This document shows, piece after piece, positions 33,884 to 64,000 of a stretch of DNA of 64,000 bases. The stretch lies in contig JAJFGV010000071.1 of NCBI GenBank assembly GCA_021775965.1, positions 1 to 64,000 of the forward strand, written 5' to 3'. The notes under the pieces were generated by a model. The model made no database searches. It saw nothing but the letters and a program-made list of their open reading frames with translations, and was not told the DNA's origin. This DNA comes from Alphaproteobacteria bacterium (GTDB lineage: Bacteria > Pseudomonadota > Alphaproteobacteria > Micavibrionales > Micavibrionaceae). Each line of letters starts with the position of its first letter. The first letter of the stretch is position 1. Made by a program: the position numbers and the translations under genes.

Positions 33884-34342
33884 ATGATCAAGGTGGCCTT
33901 ATATCAGCCGGATATACCCCAGAACGTGGGCGCGATGATGCGCCTGTGTGCATGTCTTGGTGTACGGCTGGATGTTATCGGCCCTTGCGGATTCGTCTGG
34001 GATGATAAGAAAATCAGGCAAGCCGGGCTGGATTATGTCGATAAGGTGAAGCTGACCCGCTACAATTCCTGGGAACAGTTTATAGCCTCAACCCCGGACA
34101 GCCGTATCATCCTCATGACCACAAAGACCGACACCCCTTATACGTCCTTTGAATTTCAGGACGGTGATATCCTGCTGGCCGGCCGTGAAAGCGCCGGTGT
34201 ACCGGACGAAATCCACGAATCTGCTGATGCCCGCATTGCCATTACAATGCAAAATGACCTAAGGTCGCTCAATATTGTCAATGCAACGTCTATGATACTG
34301 GGCGAAGCCTTAAGGCAGACGAATAAGCACTTGACAAATTAG
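33884..34342 (+). CDS. trmL: tRNA (cytidine(34)-2'-O)-methyltransferase
   Basis: 152 residues from the ATG at 33884. The SPOUT fold is seen in [23 protein letters not shown] at the start and [27 protein letters not shown]...[19 protein letters not shown] at the end, the two SPOUT motifs of TrmL. It methylates the wobble base of tRNA-Leu (cytidine and uridine forms). The tRNA-Leu(CAA) found in this window is a predicted substrate. The hemF promoter begins inside its last codons. Confidence 0.93.
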
Positions 34343-34359
34343 GATATGTTTCCTATAAT
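34331..34359 (+). promoter_or_regulatory. perfect-consensus promoter of hemF with spacer dyad
   Basis: TTGACA (34331-34336), 17-bp spacer, TATAAT (34354-34359): the full sigma-70 consensus. The spacer holds the dyad TAGGA-N6-TCCTA, which overlaps the ends of the spacer. It lies in the last codons of trmL, so hemF has its own promoter, with a leader of about 85 nt. A second promoter at 61136 has the same sequence at 27 of 29 positions. Confidence 0.75.
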
Positions 34360-34451
34360 AGGGATGTAAATCACCCGAAATATATCAAAATAAAAGAAGG
34401 CAGGGGGCACCCCCCACTAAAATTTGCGACCGAACTAAAGGAAAAGCCATT

Positions 34452-35360
34452 ATGTCAGCCAAAACAAAACCTTACGAGGCAGAAAATCTTGGGAATCAGC
34501 AAGATATAGCCACCACCTGGTTTCGCTCGCTGCGCGATCAAATCTGCGCCGAATTTGAAAAAATCGAGGATGAACTTTCCGATGGCCCTAAAATGACCCG
34601 TGAACCGGGTCGTTTTGAGCGCAAAAACTGGGATCGCGCAGAGGGCTTGTCCGGCGAAGCCTTGGCGAAGCCGGGGGGCGGCGGTGAAATGTCGATCATG
34701 CGCGGCCGTGTCTTTGAAAAGGTTGGCGTCAATATCTCTACAGTTCACGGCAGCTTTTCCGAAGAATTCCGCGAGAGAATCCCCGGCGCCAATGATAGTG
34801 ACGGCGCCTTTTGGGCTGCCGGTATTTCGCTGGTCGCCCATATGCAAAGCCCCCTCGTTCCGGCCGTTCACATGAATACGCGCATGATCTGCACGTCCAA
34901 AACCTGGTTTGGCGGCGGTATGGATTTAACCCCGATGCTCGAGGACCCCGATGACACACAAGCCTTCCACGAAGCCCTCAAAACCTGCTGTAACCAGCAT
35001 GGAGAGGGCGCTTACGACGAATATAAAGCCTGGTGTGACCGTTATTTCTTCCTGCCTCACCGTGATGAAGCCCGCGGCGTTGGTGGTATTTTCTATGATT
35101 ATTTAGAGAATGACTGGGATTCAGATTTTGCCTTCACCAAAGATGTTGGCGAGACCTTTTTGAGCATATATCCGCAGCTCGTACGCAAATCCATGAACCG
35201 TGACTGGAGCGATGAACAACGCGAGGCCCAACTCGTCAAACGTGGCCGCTACGTTGAGTTTAACCTACTTTACGACCGCGGCACCCAGTTCGGCCTCAAA
35301 ACCGGCGGCAATACCGAAGCCATCCTCATGTCCCTCCCCCCCGAGGTAAAATGGCCCTAA
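34452..35360 (+). CDS. hemF: oxygen-dependent coproporphyrinogen III oxidase
   Basis: 302 residues. It turns coproporphyrinogen III into protoporphyrinogen IX with O2 in heme synthesis, in the cytosol. Motifs typical of Hem[89 protein letters not shown], and [39 protein letters not shown]. An AAAGGA site lies before the ATG. The aerobic form agrees with the aerobic bc1 operon nearby. The promoter is consensus with an operator-like dyad, so heme synthesis may be regulated here. Confidence 0.97.
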
Positions 35361-59893: not shown

Positions 59894-60202
59894 ATGGAAT
59901 CCGAACTCCCCCAAATCATCCGCCTTGTGCTTGCTCTCGCTTTTGTGCTGGCGCTGATGGGCGGATTGGCATTGCTTCTGAAACGGTTCGGCTTATCCAC
60001 AGGAATGGCGAGCTCTTCGGGGGAGAAGCGCCTCAAGGTGGTTGAAGCCTTGCCGCTCGATGCACGGCACAGAGCAATCCTTTTGCAGCGTGATGACAAA
60101 CAACATCTTGTCATTTTAGGACCGAATAGCGAGACTGTTGTCGAAAACGATATCAAACCAAAAAAGAATAATGAAAAAACAGAAAACAAAAACCGCGCGT
60201 AA
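59894..60202 (+). CDS. fliO: flagellar biosynthesis protein FliO
   Basis: 102 residues. One membrane helix (about residues 8-30) followed by a cytoplasmic part with KRLKVVEALPLDARHRAILLQRDDKQHLVILGPNSETVVE, the FliO pattern. FliO helps FliP assemble. The tail is Lys/Asn-rich, probably a translated overlap: the last 32 bases overlap the start of fliP in another frame. Confidence 0.88.
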   Translation: MESELPQIIRLVLALAFVLALMGGLALLLKRFGLSTGMASSSGEKRLKVVEALPLDARHRAILLQRDDKQHLVILGPNSETVVENDIKPKKNNEKTENKNRA

Positions 60203-60995
60203 AGATGCTCGTAGGAGCCTTACCAAAGCCTGTATAGCCTTGAGCCTCAGTGCTTTTGTAACGCTGTGCATTCTGGCCGGCCATGAGGCGCTCGCACAGA
60301 ATATCTCGATTGATCTTGGCAGTGAAGGCGATGGAACGGTTTCTGGCCGCGTAATCCAGCTGGTGGCGCTGCTCACTATTTTATCGCTGGCGCCAAGCAT
60401 CCTGATCATGATGACTAGCTTCACGCGGATCATTGTCGTGCTTTCTTTCTTACGAACCGCGATCGGTATTCAGCAAACACCACCCAATACGGTGATGATA
60501 TCGCTGGCGTTGTTCCTCACCTTTTTCATTATGGCGCCAACTTTTACGGCTGCCTATGAAACCGCGATTGTACCGCTGATCGCCGAAGAGATTGACGAGA
60601 TCGAAGCCTTTGAAAAAGGCGTCGCACCGTTCCGGACGTTTATGCTCAAACATGTGCGTGAGCAGGATCTCGAGCTGTTTGCCAATTACAGTCAGGAAGG
60701 TCCGTTTGAAAGCGTCACTGATATCCCACTGCAGGTGATTATTCCGGCGTTCATGATTACCGAGCTGCGCCGCGCGTTCGAGATTGGCTTTATGTTGTTC
60801 CTGCCGTTCCTGGTTATCGACCTCGTCACCGCGTCAATTTTGATGTCGATGGGGATGATGATGCTGCCGCCGGTGACAATTTCTCTGCCGTTCAAAATCA
60901 TCTTTTTCGTGCTGGTCGATGGCTGGTATCTAATCGCCGGATCGCTGATTCAGGGCTTTGATGTTGTGCCGCCGGTGGCCGGAACCGGGCCGTAA
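60171..60995 (+). CDS. fliP: flagellar export gate protein FliP
   Basis: 274 residues from the ATG at 60171; an upstream TTG gives 11 more residues with no support. A basic signal peptide (to about residue 43) is followed by four membrane helices with the FliP motifs IQLVALLTILSLAPSILIMMTSFTRIIVVLSFLRTAIGIQQTPPNTVMISLALFLTFFIM and PLQVIIPAFMITELRRAFEIGFMLFLPFLVIDLV. It forms the core of the export gate. Its start overlaps fliO by 32 bases. Confidence 0.96.
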   Translation: MKKQKTKTARKDARRSLTKACIALSLSAFVTLCILAGHEALAQNISIDLGSEGDGTVSGRVIQLVALLTILSLAPSILIMMTSFTRIIVVLSFLRTAIGIQQTPPNTVMISLALFLTFFIMAPTFTAAYETAIVPLIAEEIDEIEAFEKGVAPFRTFMLKHVREQDLELFANYSQEGPFESVTDIPLQVIIPAFMITELRRAFEIGFMLFLPFLVIDLVTASILMSMGMMMLPPVTISLPFKIIFFVLVDGWYLIAGSLIQGFDVVPPVAGTGP

Positions 60996-61129
60996 CGCGC
61001 AGGGCCTATGTGGGCCCACATTGCCGTTTTTCGGGCCTACATTTTGGGTCCACTTTTCCATCATATACAGGTAAGTAGCCCCGAAATGTGGCCCCACTTA
61101 CGCAATGGGTAGAGTCAGGGATATTTCTT
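60996..61129 (-). ncRNA. candidate structured small RNA downstream of fliP, read on the minus strand
   Basis: A gene-free stretch with a perfect palindrome ATGTGGGCCCACAT (61008-61021) and a near-complementary pair of 23-base arms, starting GGGCCTACATTTTGG (61033-61055) and AAGTAGCCCCGAAATG (61073-61095), with a 17-base loop. On the minus strand it lies immediately downstream of a perfect-consensus promoter (61136-61164), so a transcript from about 61129 would fold into these hairpins. There is no U-tract terminator that I can see. On the plus strand the same hairpins could end the fliP message. The RNA gene is inferred from promoter plus folding, not from homology. Confidence 0.3.
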
Positions 61130-61135
61130 ACCGAC

Positions 61136-61164
61136 ATTATAGGAAATATATCCTATTTTGTCAA
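61136..61164 (-). promoter_or_regulatory. perfect-consensus promoter with spacer dyad, minus strand
   Basis: Read on the minus strand: TTGACA (61164-61159), 17-bp spacer, TATAAT (61141-61136). The spacer carries TAGGA-N6-TCCTA, extended to ATAGGA/TCCTAT over 61139-61156. 27 of the 29 positions equal the hemF promoter at 34331. It drives no ORF; downstream on this strand lies the hairpin region up to fliP. Confidence 0.65.
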
Positions 61165-61226
61165 GGGCTTTGGGGCCTACTTCTTTATGATTGCCTTTTG
61201 TGATCAGGCTATGGCATAAGCGAAAT

Positions 61227-61616
61227 ATGATTTTAGGATTTTTCTGGCCAGAGATTGAAGACAAGAAGGAAGCAGAGTCTGTTGCCTACCGATCAATTGC
61301 TGCAGCAGGAATAATAATATTATTTCATGCCCTGGGAATTCTTACACTCTTTTTAAACAATACAGGCTACATATTTTCTGATATCGGACAAGAGCCTATC
61401 TGGCGCTATATAATCATACATCTTGGATATATTTCAGGACTTGGGTGTGCGGCAGGTTTTGTCATGCACAGTAAAAGTCTTTTGGGTGCTTCTGCTATAT
61501 TAATTTTATCCCTGTACGCAGCCTTAGGTGGACCCTATCTATTAACTTTACCAGCAGTAATATTTACTATTGCCGGCGTGAGAGGCGCTATTCAGTATCA
61601 CAAACTTGAGGATTAA
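61227..61616 (+). CDS. small polytopic membrane protein, unknown
   Basis: 129 residues from the ATG at 61227; the frame extends 12 codons to a TTG. A short charged N-terminus (FFWPEIEDKKEAESVAYRS) is followed by four hydrophobic segments (about residues 22-43, 58-78, 83-103, 105-120). No family recognised; the codon use and A+T content differ from the flagellar genes. The ribosome site is weak. It lies between the structured region and a repeat element. Confidence 0.5.
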   Translation: MILGFFWPEIEDKKEAESVAYRSIAAAGIIILFHALGILTLFLNNTGYIFSDIGQEPIWRYIIIHLGYISGLGCAAGFVMHSKSLLGASAILILSLYAALGGPYLLTLPAVIFTIAGVRGAIQYHKLED

Positions 61617-61619
61617 GAT

Positions 61620-61694
61620 CCTTCGACTTCGTGCCTTCGGCACTCCGCTCAGGATGACAGTTTTCTAAGGAGCAGAGCGCCTAAGAAAACTGTC
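61620..61694. repeat. intergenic element with GGATGAC and a 15-bp hairpin
   Basis: It opens with CCTTCGACTTCGTGCCTTCGG and GCACTCCGCTCAGGATGACA, an arrangement seen widely between alphaproteobacterial genes, and continues into an inverted repeat GACAGTTTTCTAAGG (61656-61670) / CCTAAGAAAACTGTC (61680-61694) with one mismatch and a nine-base loop. The right arm includes the stop codon of the minus-strand gene at 61693, so it can end that transcript. It resembles the elements at 502 and 16632 only in the GGATGAC part. Confidence 0.55.
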
Positions 61695-64000
61695 AATTCG
61701 ACGGGGTTTGTGAGTCTTTATAAGCATTCAGGAAACCCTCAAACATATCGACTTCGGAGACGATGCTCAGCAGCGTTTGGCGGTCGACGAGGGCGGCGTT
61801 TTGGCGTGGGCGCGTTACAACATCAAACATCCACGACTTGTCGGTTTGCGCCATCGGGTCAGCATATTTTTCGCGCATATTGGCCAGCGCAATTCTATCA
61901 CTGGCCAGGTTCAACGAAATCGCGCGGTGGAGAATGAAGGTTGCGTCTTCATCTTTTAATGGCCGCGTCAGGGAAATATCGCGGTCGAGAATGACATCCC
62001 CCAACGCCTCAGCGGCATCATCCCAATACGCCGCTTTCCATGCAATATCGGCGCGCAGACGGTTCACATCGGGAGTCAGTTTCATGCCGTTTAAAATCGC
62101 CAGCGCCTGGTCCGGTTTTTTGTCTTGCGAAAACGCGCGCGCGCGCAGCAGTGATATTTCGTTATAGCGCGCCCCATTGGCTATCTCTTCGGGCAATGTG
62201 CGCAGGATCGCCGTGGCTTTATCGAGCGCCGGCATCGCATGATCAGGCTGCGCCGCCAACAAACGGATAGCCGCCAAACGCACAGCAACACGGGCGGCAT
62301 GATCGCCCTCAAGACGGTGCTCAATCTGGTGCTTTAACAAATCTCCGGCGCGATCAAGAAGATCAGCCTGCACCAAGCGCTCGGCAAGATTTTCAACAAC
62401 CTTGTCGCCCTTTGGCCCGGCGGGCGTTAATTCGCTGAACTGCTCGTAAAGCGCGACCGCATCGAGCGGCGAAACATCTTCAAGGTGCGGGCCTATATAA
62501 AGGTCGGTAAAGGCGGCGGTCATTTCTTCGGTGATGCGTTTTCCCAGACGCGTACCGGCGGAAAATCCTGTCGCCTCGCGCATAATATTCAGACCTTTGA
62601 TATAGTCTCTGGCATCGAAATAGGTGCGCCCCAGCCAGTAAGAGATGCTGGCCTCAAGTTGATCGCCGCGCCAGGCGTAGCGTAACCTTTCAAGATTATC
62701 GATGGCGCGTTCGAGGGTGATGTCTTCCTCTTGTCTCTGTAGACGCGTGAGCGCAAGACCGGCCTTGGCGCGGTAAAGATCATCCTCACCTTTTGACAAC
62801 GCCTTCCAGAGTTTTTTGGTTTCATCGGTATTGCCGGCCTGACGGGCCGCCTCGCCTTTAAGATATTGCAGCGCTGCCTTGAACGGTGGCGCCAGTTTGT
62901 CTTCATCCTCTTCCACCAACGCCAAAAGATCTTCGCCAATATCGATATTGCCGGCGCGCAAAGAAACTTCCGCCAGCATCAGTGCCAAACGCGAACGTAC
63001 AGCTTCGGGGTAATCGTAAAGCGGCTCGATATCGGCGGGCATCACCTCATAGGCCTGTTGCCAATCCGCCAGATCAGCCAGCGCATAAGCGCGCCAGTAA
63101 TTGACCTCTTCAAACGGCTTGAGAGATTTGATTGAAAGATCTTCGAATGCCTCTTCGCTGTTCCAGCTCAGCGCATGCGCTACGCCGCGCAGTGCGAGGA
63201 ACTCGGGATTGGATTCAAGCTCGGGCAATTCTTCGCGGGCAAAACTGACAAAGCCAAGCGCTTCGGCGGCGCGACCATTTGATAAATACATCCGCGCCAA
63301 TGTGATTAAGTTTTCAACTTTTTCACCCTCGGTCGTTTCGTTCATATCGGCCAGAAGAATATTTTCGTTCTGGTCCATAACGTCAACGCCGCCCATCTGC
63401 CATTCGGAAAAGCTGTAGATACGCGGGGCGGGTTTTTTCCTTTTCGCAGGGTCCTGGCCATCGGGCGCTTTTCTATCCCGGGCCTGGGCCATCATCTGTT
63501 CCGACATCAGTGCCAGACCACCAGGGCGAGAGATCTCAACACCATCACCGGTGACCCTGACCTCGAGGTCATCAACTTTGGGACGGATAACCAGACCGAT
63601 ATGTGAGGGCAGCGTTTCAAAATCAACAAATTCGCGCCCGGGCCCGCCGAAATCTTTTGAGCTGCCCGTTGTCACAAGGATCAGCGTGTCACCGGAAATC
63701 TCATCGACAAATTCAATGACTTCTGCCGCCTCTTCAAACGGCCAGATGAGCGTGCCGCCACGCACAGCGTCGCGGCGTTCAAATTCACGGATGGGATCCA
63801 CCGGATGTTTTTTCTTGTCATCGGCGGACACCACGACGCGCCAGAGCAAGCCGCCGCCCTGCCCACGCGCATGATGGCCTTCCGGTATTTTGGTGGCATA
63901 CGCCTTATTGTCATCCTTGAGCTTTTTTTCCTTAAAGGGTGGGAAGATTTCAGGATTTGGCCCGTTAATCTGAGGCTTGAGGTAAAATGCATCCTTGTCC
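61693..64000 (-). CDS. large helical-repeat (TPR-like) protein, N-terminus beyond window
   Basis: The frame is open from the window edge (first full codon at 63999) to the TGA at 61693, about 768 residues; the start is outside. The N-terminal part visible here (about 200 residues) contains a beta-rich segment with LLWRVVVSADDKKKHPVDPIREFERRDAVRGGTLIWPFEEAAEVIEFVDEISGDTLILVTTGSSKDFG, like AMIN or secretin-type domains. From about residue 230 it is all helical with repeat-like motifs (GRAAEALGFVSFAREELPEL, NTDETKKLWKALSKGEDDLYRAKAGLALTRLQ), so it is TPR-like. Position next to the flagellar genes suggests an envelope or motility role; not proven. Confidence 0.7.
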   Translation of the reverse strand, partial: DKDAFYLKPQINGPNPEIFPPFKEKKLKDDNKAYATKIPEGHHARGQGGGLLWRVVVSADDKKKHPVDPIREFERRDAVRGGTLIWPFEEAAEVIEFVDEISGDTLILVTTGSSKDFGGPGREFVDFETLPSHIGLVIRPKVDDLEVRVTGDGVEISRPGGLALMSEQMMAQARDRKAPDGQDPAKRKKPAPRIYSFSEWQMGGVDVMDQNENILLADMNETTEGEKVENLITLARMYLSNGRAAEALGFVSFAREELPELESNPEFLALRGVAHALSWNSEEAFEDLSIKSLKPFEEVNYWRAYALADLADWQQAYEVMPADIEPLYDYPEAVRSRLALMLAEVSLRAGNIDIGEDLLALVEEDEDKLAPPFKAALQYLKGEAARQAGNTDETKKLWKALSKGEDDLYRAKAGLALTRLQRQEEDITLERAIDNLERLRYAWRGDQLEASISYWLGRTYFDARDYIKGLNIMREATGFSAGTRLGKRITEEMTAAFTDLYIGPHLEDVSPLDAVALYEQFSELTPAGPKGDKVVENLAERLVQADLLDRAGDLLKHQIEHRLEGDHAARVAVRLAAIRLLAAQPDHAMPALDKATAILRTLPEEIANGARYNEISLLRARAFSQDKKPDQALAILNGMKLTPDVNRLRADIAWKAAYWDDAAEALGDVILDRDISLTRPLKDEDATFILHRAISLNLASDRIALANMREKYADPMAQTDKSWMFDVVTRPRQNAALVDRQTLLSIVSEVDMFEGFLNAYKDSQTPSN

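Follow-up and report, generated by a model that had tools for sequence, protein, structure and literature searches.

A conserved promoter with an internal operator faces fliP in a Micavibrio-type bacterium and is probably under a RogA/CI-like repressor

We report that the minus-strand promoter at 61136-61164 of the window (the whole stretch of 64,000 nucleotides analysed here) is probably a member of a vertically conserved promoter family repressed by a RogA/CI-like protein, with a transcript that would converge on fliP. The promoter and its operator, the copies and their synteny, and the linkage of the same box to HTH and capsid genes of relatives are features of the genomes themselves; from these we infer the binder, the sign of control, transcription and any effect on fliP. 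A previous reading of the window (the initial annotation) had proposed at this place a candidate regulated small RNA, for instance a metal-sparing one, under joint control with hemF.

A perfect promoter with an internal operator converges on fliP

The features of the window that are used below are the following.

34331-34359, plus strand: other promoter/operator copy of the window, 5' of hemF (sequence scan, synteny)
34452-35360, plus strand: hemF, oxygen-dependent coproporphyrinogen oxidase (Pfam PF01218, 8.9e-92; NCBIfam PRK05330, 386 bits, cut-off 297)
60138-60995, plus strand: fliP, start codon uncertain (Pfam FliP, 2e-81), convergent with the promoter
61008-61021, no strand: 14-bp perfect palindrome ATGTGGGCCCACAT (from the sequence)
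61033-61095, minus strand: leader hairpin, arms 61095-61075 and 61053-61033
61121-61129, minus strand: position at which many other copies have the +1 ATG; this copy reads AAGAAATAT and lacks the start codon (comparison with other copies)
61136-61164, minus strand: sigma-70 promoter, -35 TTGACA at 61164-61159, -10 TATAAT at 61141-61136
61140-61155, no strand: operator palindrome TAGGAAATATATCCTA, a GGA-N6-TCC box between -35 and -10
61191-61616, plus strand: orphan ORF, reading away from the promoter and without a Pfam match

A sequence scan of the window revealed, from 61164 to 61136 on the minus strand, a perfect sigma-70 promoter (TTGACA-17-TATAAT, 12/12 bases matched) with a predicted +1 at 61129. 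When one mismatch is allowed, the window holds two such sites against 0.24 expected, the other one being the copy 5' of hemF. The promoter noted by the initial annotation and the operator that it took as shared with hemF are genuine (12/12 promoter match and the TAGGAAATATATCCTA box), both elements are common to the fliP-facing site and hemF, and the joint control with hemF is well supported by the conservation of both elements. It had also described the promoter as pointing away from any ORF. Instead, the promoter converges on fliP, whose stop at 60995 lies 134 nt from the +1, and read-through would be antisense to the 3' end of fliP.

No metal theme is apparent among the genes found by eye 3' of other copies (lpxC, pheS, dus, ubiE, rnhB, mazG and suhB), and the operator comes nearest to the RogA/CI type. 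It appears unlike the metal-regulator boxes of Fur, Zur and RirA, and does not read like the alphaproteobacterial LexA (SOS) box, GTTC-N7-GTTC. The suggested metal-sparing RNA found support neither in these downstream genes, nor in an Rfam search, nor in the syntenic comparison. A search of IMG/VR for a viral origin of the promoter gave no exact match.

The promoter recurs across the genome, often with an ATG at +1

The genome of the window (G000; 2.93 Mb, 122 contigs) contains 28 matches to the pattern TTGACANNNTAGGANNNNTTTCCTATAAT with up to three mismatches, and none to the reversed control. At up to two mismatches, the promoter pattern was held by 12 of 38 genomes, G000 included: it was present in 8 of 21 further genomes of the family (Micavibrionaceae) and in none of 13 genomes outside it, and G000 and the three sister species of the same genus (G001, G002 and G003) had 22, 9, 6 and 19 sites, respectively. 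Public species genomes, scanned for exact matches, returned 37 stretches, of which 28 were titled Alphaproteobacteria (10 of those Micavibrio sp. DHS20C02); the remaining nine, from other phyla, may be chance matches. The bare palindrome TAGGA-W6-TCCTA was found in 25 of 41 family genomes and, in other genera, also at other genes.

A search that ignored the operator (TTGACA-N17-TATAAT) found 15 G000 sites and 12 G003 sites. In all 27 of these perfect promoters (15/15 and 12/12) TCC adjoins the -10; the left half is GGA in 21 of the 27 and TGA (five) or AGA (one) in the other six, which make up 4 of the 15 in G000 and 2 of the 12 in G003. Across copies, conservation centres on the promoter, the base that precedes it and an ATG at +1, and the positions from the -10 to the ATG are weakly conserved. 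An ATG stands exactly at the predicted +1 in 47 of 85 promoter copies compared, 39 of them in the four genus members (16/28 in G000, 13/19 in G003, 6/9 in G001 and 4/6 in G002); the window copy has AAG.

The window copy could accordingly be read as a decayed leaderless small-protein gene, which would have lost the +1 ATG present in many sister copies. This reading, which we consider rather unlikely, gains from the 39 copies of G000-G003 that do have the +1 ATG: the median open length is 72 codons in this frame and 28 codons in frame +2 (p = 1.3e-5; frame +1, mostly closed at once by ATGA, was left out). However, many of the translated leaders appear by eye to be dispersed repeats that are read through in one frame or another, and the promoter of the window copy is still perfect. 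The initial annotation had described the region as without coding potential; this potential is low, with a mechanical 55-aa GTG ORF and the AAG in place of the +1 ATG.

Database searches with small proteins encoded under other copies returned nothing in PADLOC (four proteins) or PHROGs (four), and in Pfam (seven) gave chance-level hits plus two to Phd/YefM (3.1e-6 and 0.029), neither of which reached the gathering score. By eye, Phd/YefM-like antitoxin sequences lie right behind the operator promoter at L021, L023, L038 and L092 (the two sub-gathering Pfam hits come from these loci), and the same promoters precede Lys/Arg-rich proteins with an STGPRTxEGK-like stretch at L014, L018, L062, L027, L039, L169 and L176. 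The L014 and L027 proteins had no match in Pfam or PHROGs, and that of L014 none in PADLOC. The motif AACGAACTNAAGGA is often found behind promoters (L008, L009, L026, L027, L028, L052, L053, L057, L069 and L072) in pairs about 75 nt apart in G000 and G003 or 61 nt apart in G001; the signal lies in the pairs, since the number of single hits in G001 and G002 is close to that of the control. The leaders behind CGAACTAAAGGA at 34429-34500 of the window, L015, L057, L060 and L071 encode in several cases M-x-x-KTK-x-Y or similar (by eye), and HemF seems, also by eye, to have gained an N-terminal extension of this type.

Promoter copies are syntenic in sister species

A sister-species copy was found at the syntenic place for 18 of the 28 G000 copies, not counting the match of L014, which looks like a paralogue; no counterpart was found for the other 10 in searches of the sisters at up to two mismatches only. 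The hemF copy is syntenic in all four genus members and the fliP copy in three (G000, G001 and G003), the counterparts of the fliP-facing promoter being identical at 28 of 30 bases in G003 and 29 of 30 in G001. In G002 no site is present at fliP, and by eye the end of the next gene comes within about 10 nt of the fliP stop. Nor was such a promoter seen in the examined flanks of 21 fliP loci from other genera.

In 19 syntenic pairs (the 18 G000 copies, with the window's copy used twice), mean identity was 88% for the 30-bp promoter and 84% for the spacer, both averages being inflated because the sister sites were located by pattern. It was 60% for the 80 bp upstream and 61% for the 80-bp leader, against 58% for shuffled leaders. 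Promoter identity fell below 80% in three of the 19 pairs (L017, L022 and L004); the leaders clearly above the shuffled level were those of L016 (85%), L015 (72%), L018 (71%) and L010 (65%). At the fliP-facing site, selection seems to act on the promoter, and the RNA body seems to turn over.

A promoter cassette that spreads with no regulatory meaning, MITE-like or the remains of a mobile unit, would also produce many copies, and the likeness of their spacers would then reflect copying. The copy number does vary among the four genus members (22, 9, 6 and 19 sites, as above), many copies are followed by recurrent leader motifs and repeats, and the fliP copy is absent from G002. Nevertheless, we regard a cassette of this kind as unlikely: conservation is centred on the promoter, the preceding base and the +1 ATG, 18 of the 28 copies are sufficiently old to be syntenic, and in other genera the palindrome is also found at other genes.

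In relatives the same box stands at HTH and capsid genes

Candidates for the protein that reads the operator were found in relatives. An HTH-like domain was present at nine loci, spread over 8 of the 10 genomes tested; the HTH call comes from the annotation of homologues (plasmid homologues of L193 are annotated as helix-turn-helix regulators) and from a Pfam match that is below threshold (HTH_26, E 0.082). At six of the nine loci, L190 (G003), L189 (G002), L188 and L195 (G001), L192 (G004) and L194 (G008), the domain forms the N-terminus of a 303-307-aa protein with a PyrE-like remainder (HTH-PyrE). The G003 protein was family-tested and clears the orotate phosphoribosyltransferase cut-off (318 bits, cut-off 245), those of G001 and G002 match it over the full length, and those of G004 and G008 were assigned by eye. 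In L193 (G011) the HTH-like N-terminal domain is followed by an S24 domain (Pfam, 9.8e-26), and in G014 and G023 it occurs alone or with a short tail.

In the 140 nt upstream, each of the nine loci carries at least one exact GGA-N6-TCC, and the total of 14 boxes compares with 0.12 expected. With one mismatch allowed, two boxes precede each of the six HTH-PyrE genes, and box pairs occur at eight of the nine HTH loci, with a separation of 30 bp in L193 and 36 bp in the other seven. In G014 (L172/L187) a box begins 50 nt ahead of a small HTH-like gene that adjoins a pyrE recognized by eye. Among Rhizobiales homologues (54 plasmid records matched), an upstream box was seen in one of six examined.

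The box is likewise linked to capsid genes. The G003 capsid protein belongs to Phage_capsid_2 (Pfam, 1.8e-79), and about 8 kb at most separates a capsid gene from HTH-PyrE in G002, G003 and the two islands of G001. An operator promoter stands upstream of all four capsid loci of G001-G003 that were fetched by protein, one of the boxes with one mismatch; the capsid loci of G004, G046, G051, G052 and G054 were found via the promoter or palindrome and are not independent of it. By eye, a gene at L172 (G014, C320), close to the HTH gene and the palindrome, resembles a phage portal or head-tail connector.

The G000 assembly yielded no HTH domain, HTH-PyrE, capsid gene or recognisable pyrE. Because pyrE, which is usually needed, is missing as well, the absence of repressor, capsid gene and pyrE is more likely due to a gap in assembly or binning. 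It is possible that the repressor was lost from G000, and if this were truly so, the operator promoters would be constitutive. A literature search found nothing on an orotate phosphoribosyltransferase-helix-turn-helix fusion in alphaproteobacteria, and the accessible portions of the literature on Micavibrio small RNAs, gene transfer agents and promoter regulons held nothing on the present subject.

The operator resembles that of RogA

In Caulobacter crescentus, RogA combines an S24-like domain with an HTH at its N-terminus and binds the gafYZ core promoter, a region with two GGAA-N4-TTCC repeats; ChIP placed it at two promoters only (PMC9632790). The present operator is alike in half-sites, in spacing and in being an inverted repeat of the core promoter: the window box, GGAA-ATAT-ATCC, matches 7 of the 8 bases of the RogA repeat. 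The regulator of L193 also combines an N-terminal HTH with an S24-type domain, RogA being set alongside it by description (PMC9632790). RogA is tied to phage-like particle genes, as is the box of the sister species to capsid genes. In contrast to the two ChIP targets given there for RogA, 28 copies exist here, hemF included, 15 of them with perfect -35 and -10. Moreover, in comparison with the RogA system as described (PMC9632790), the sister-species box stands directly at the capsid gene, the regulator of the sisters is fused to PyrE, and no regulator was found in the G000 assembly. We take the operator as RogA-type because of the boxes at HTH and capsid genes in relatives and the 7/8 match. 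By analogy, the site would work like a RogA-type regulon; we do not file it as a member, as no HTH repressor was found in G000.

In regulators of the lambda CI/LexA type, a palindrome lies between -35 and -10 and paired boxes stand at the regulator's own gene. The present system shares both traits, as well as the HTH (and S24) in the case of L193, but the operator sequence is different and the HTH-PyrE form shows no Pfam S24 domain; self-cleavage is therefore not expected of it. Bacillus subtilis PurR and HTH-PyrE are alike in joining a DNA-binding domain to a phosphoribosyltransferase fold, whereas the G003 HTH-PyrE passes the orotate phosphoribosyltransferase cut-off and has another DNA-binding domain.

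Transcription towards fliP

Upon derepression, the promoter might lower the expression of fliP from its 3' end through antisense transcription or transcriptional interference. Consistent with such an effect, the convergent layout is found in G000, G001 and G003 despite differing distance, leader and neighbour ORF, and no intrinsic terminator was found ahead of fliP in the window. However, at least 8 of the 27 other G000 copies also face an oppositely oriented gene (by reading), so that this layout is not peculiar to fliP, and the promoter is absent from G002 and from the examined flanks of the 21 fliP loci of other genera. We consider interference with fliP an improbable explanation for the site.

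The interval between fliP and a TPR-like gene contains, by eye, a different extra ORF in each of G000, G001 and G003 and none in G002, and is perhaps a small insertion hot spot. In the window, a 19-nt inverted repeat with a 3-nt loop (61655-61695, 89% complementary) lies 3' of the orphan ORF.

The leader hairpin is a repeat that belongs with the promoter family

The initial annotation had based its small RNA on the promoter, the operator and stable folding. Both structures that it named are present, the 14-bp palindrome ATGTGGGCCCACAT (61008-61021) and the hairpin (arms 61033-61053 and 61075-61095). The folding itself is unremarkable: 12 of 200 dinucleotide shuffles fold equally well (z -1.62), the weaker mononucleotide control giving z -3.9. 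On the minus strand, no intrinsic terminator was found from the +1 to 60000 and no 3' end is predicted. No known RNA family was recognized in the Rfam search, in which the best match (E 0.47) was under the gathering score.

The stretch 60985-61115 has two more significant copies in G000, at 89% (contig C60) and 77% (C22), and there the hairpin copies begin 41 and 45 nt, respectively, behind the -10 of another promoter copy. The motif GGNCCCGAAATGTGGGGCCAC stands behind a promoter copy in four of its five G000 hits, the window's own included, and in its one hit in G003; G001 and G002 have no hit. Because hairpin copies and GGNCCCGAAATGTGGGGCCAC lie behind promoter copies, the hairpin belongs with the promoter family. 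The initial annotation had named, as an observation that would speak against a small RNA, hairpins that are copies of a dispersed repeat with no conserved promoter. The hairpin is indeed a repeat, but its copies sit behind promoter copies, and what the sisters retain at fliP is the promoter without the hairpin: in G001 and G003, CGTCATTGCGAG-type palindromes occur in its stead. Such palindromes, found in several leaders, are candidates for a likeness to the CGTC-1 repeats, which one study reports in Micavibrio aeruginosavorus (PMC3733652); the window hairpin differs in sequence from the CGTC-tagged REP repeats described there.

At the syntenic loci L010 (G000) and L047 (G003) the hairpin is retained, and the leaders of the window copy and of L004 differ from those of their syntenic counterparts. 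The 15-pair main stem has no compensatory change among the four sequences, and some of its pairs are broken (four in L010, one in L007 and one in L047). RNAalifold, run on the same number of sequences (n = 4), gave two pairs with two-sided changes, both within one 2-bp helix.

Of the regulatory small RNA, what stands is a promoter of its own, as judged by sequence; an intrinsic terminator and an Rfam match were not found. A transcript from the fliP-facing promoter is predicted, and its identity as a small RNA is unproven. A dedicated trans-acting small RNA that would regulate other mRNAs together with hemF is very unlikely: the three significant matches of the hairpin stretch in G000 (itself and two behind promoter copies), the hairpin kept at L010 and L047 and the position of GGNCCCGAAATGTGGGGCCAC behind promoter copies argue for it, but against it stand the other repeats at the fliP place in G001 and G003, the lack of GGNCCCGAAATGTGGGGCCAC hits in G001 and G002, the main stem, broken and uncompensated among the four sequences, the two-sided changes confined to one short helix, the Rfam result, the lack of an intrinsic terminator and the ordinary folding.

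Discussion

In the mechanism that we propose for the fliP-facing promoter, a RogA/CI-like repressor (HTH-PyrE in three sisters) would bind GGA-N6-TCC between -35 and -10. Once bound, the repressor would shut the promoter, and its release would lead to strong transcription. Similar boxes at the repressor's own gene and at the phage-like capsid gene of the sisters would tie the promoters to that programme: hemF and the fliP-facing transcript would respond in step with it, as would the remaining 26 copies. The product at fliP would be a short, apparently non-coding leader that converges on the gene. Because the promoter is conserved and the RNA body is not, a function, if there is one, is probably exerted by transcription that approaches or enters fliP and not by the hairpin.

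Tentatively, and still somewhat against the odds, HTH-PyrE may be a moonlighting master repressor of Micavibrio-type bacteria, which would hold down the capsid programme and some two dozen promoters and so couple the supply of nucleotides, or perhaps the state of the prey, to the making of capsids, to haem synthesis through hemF and to a transcript antisense to fliP. If the proposed mechanism is right, a single operator would join domesticated phage-type control to housekeeping and motility genes in Micavibrio relatives, and HTH-PyrE would be a testable regulator, with a signal hinted at by its enzyme half. Hairpins behind a strong promoter need not mean a small-RNA gene.
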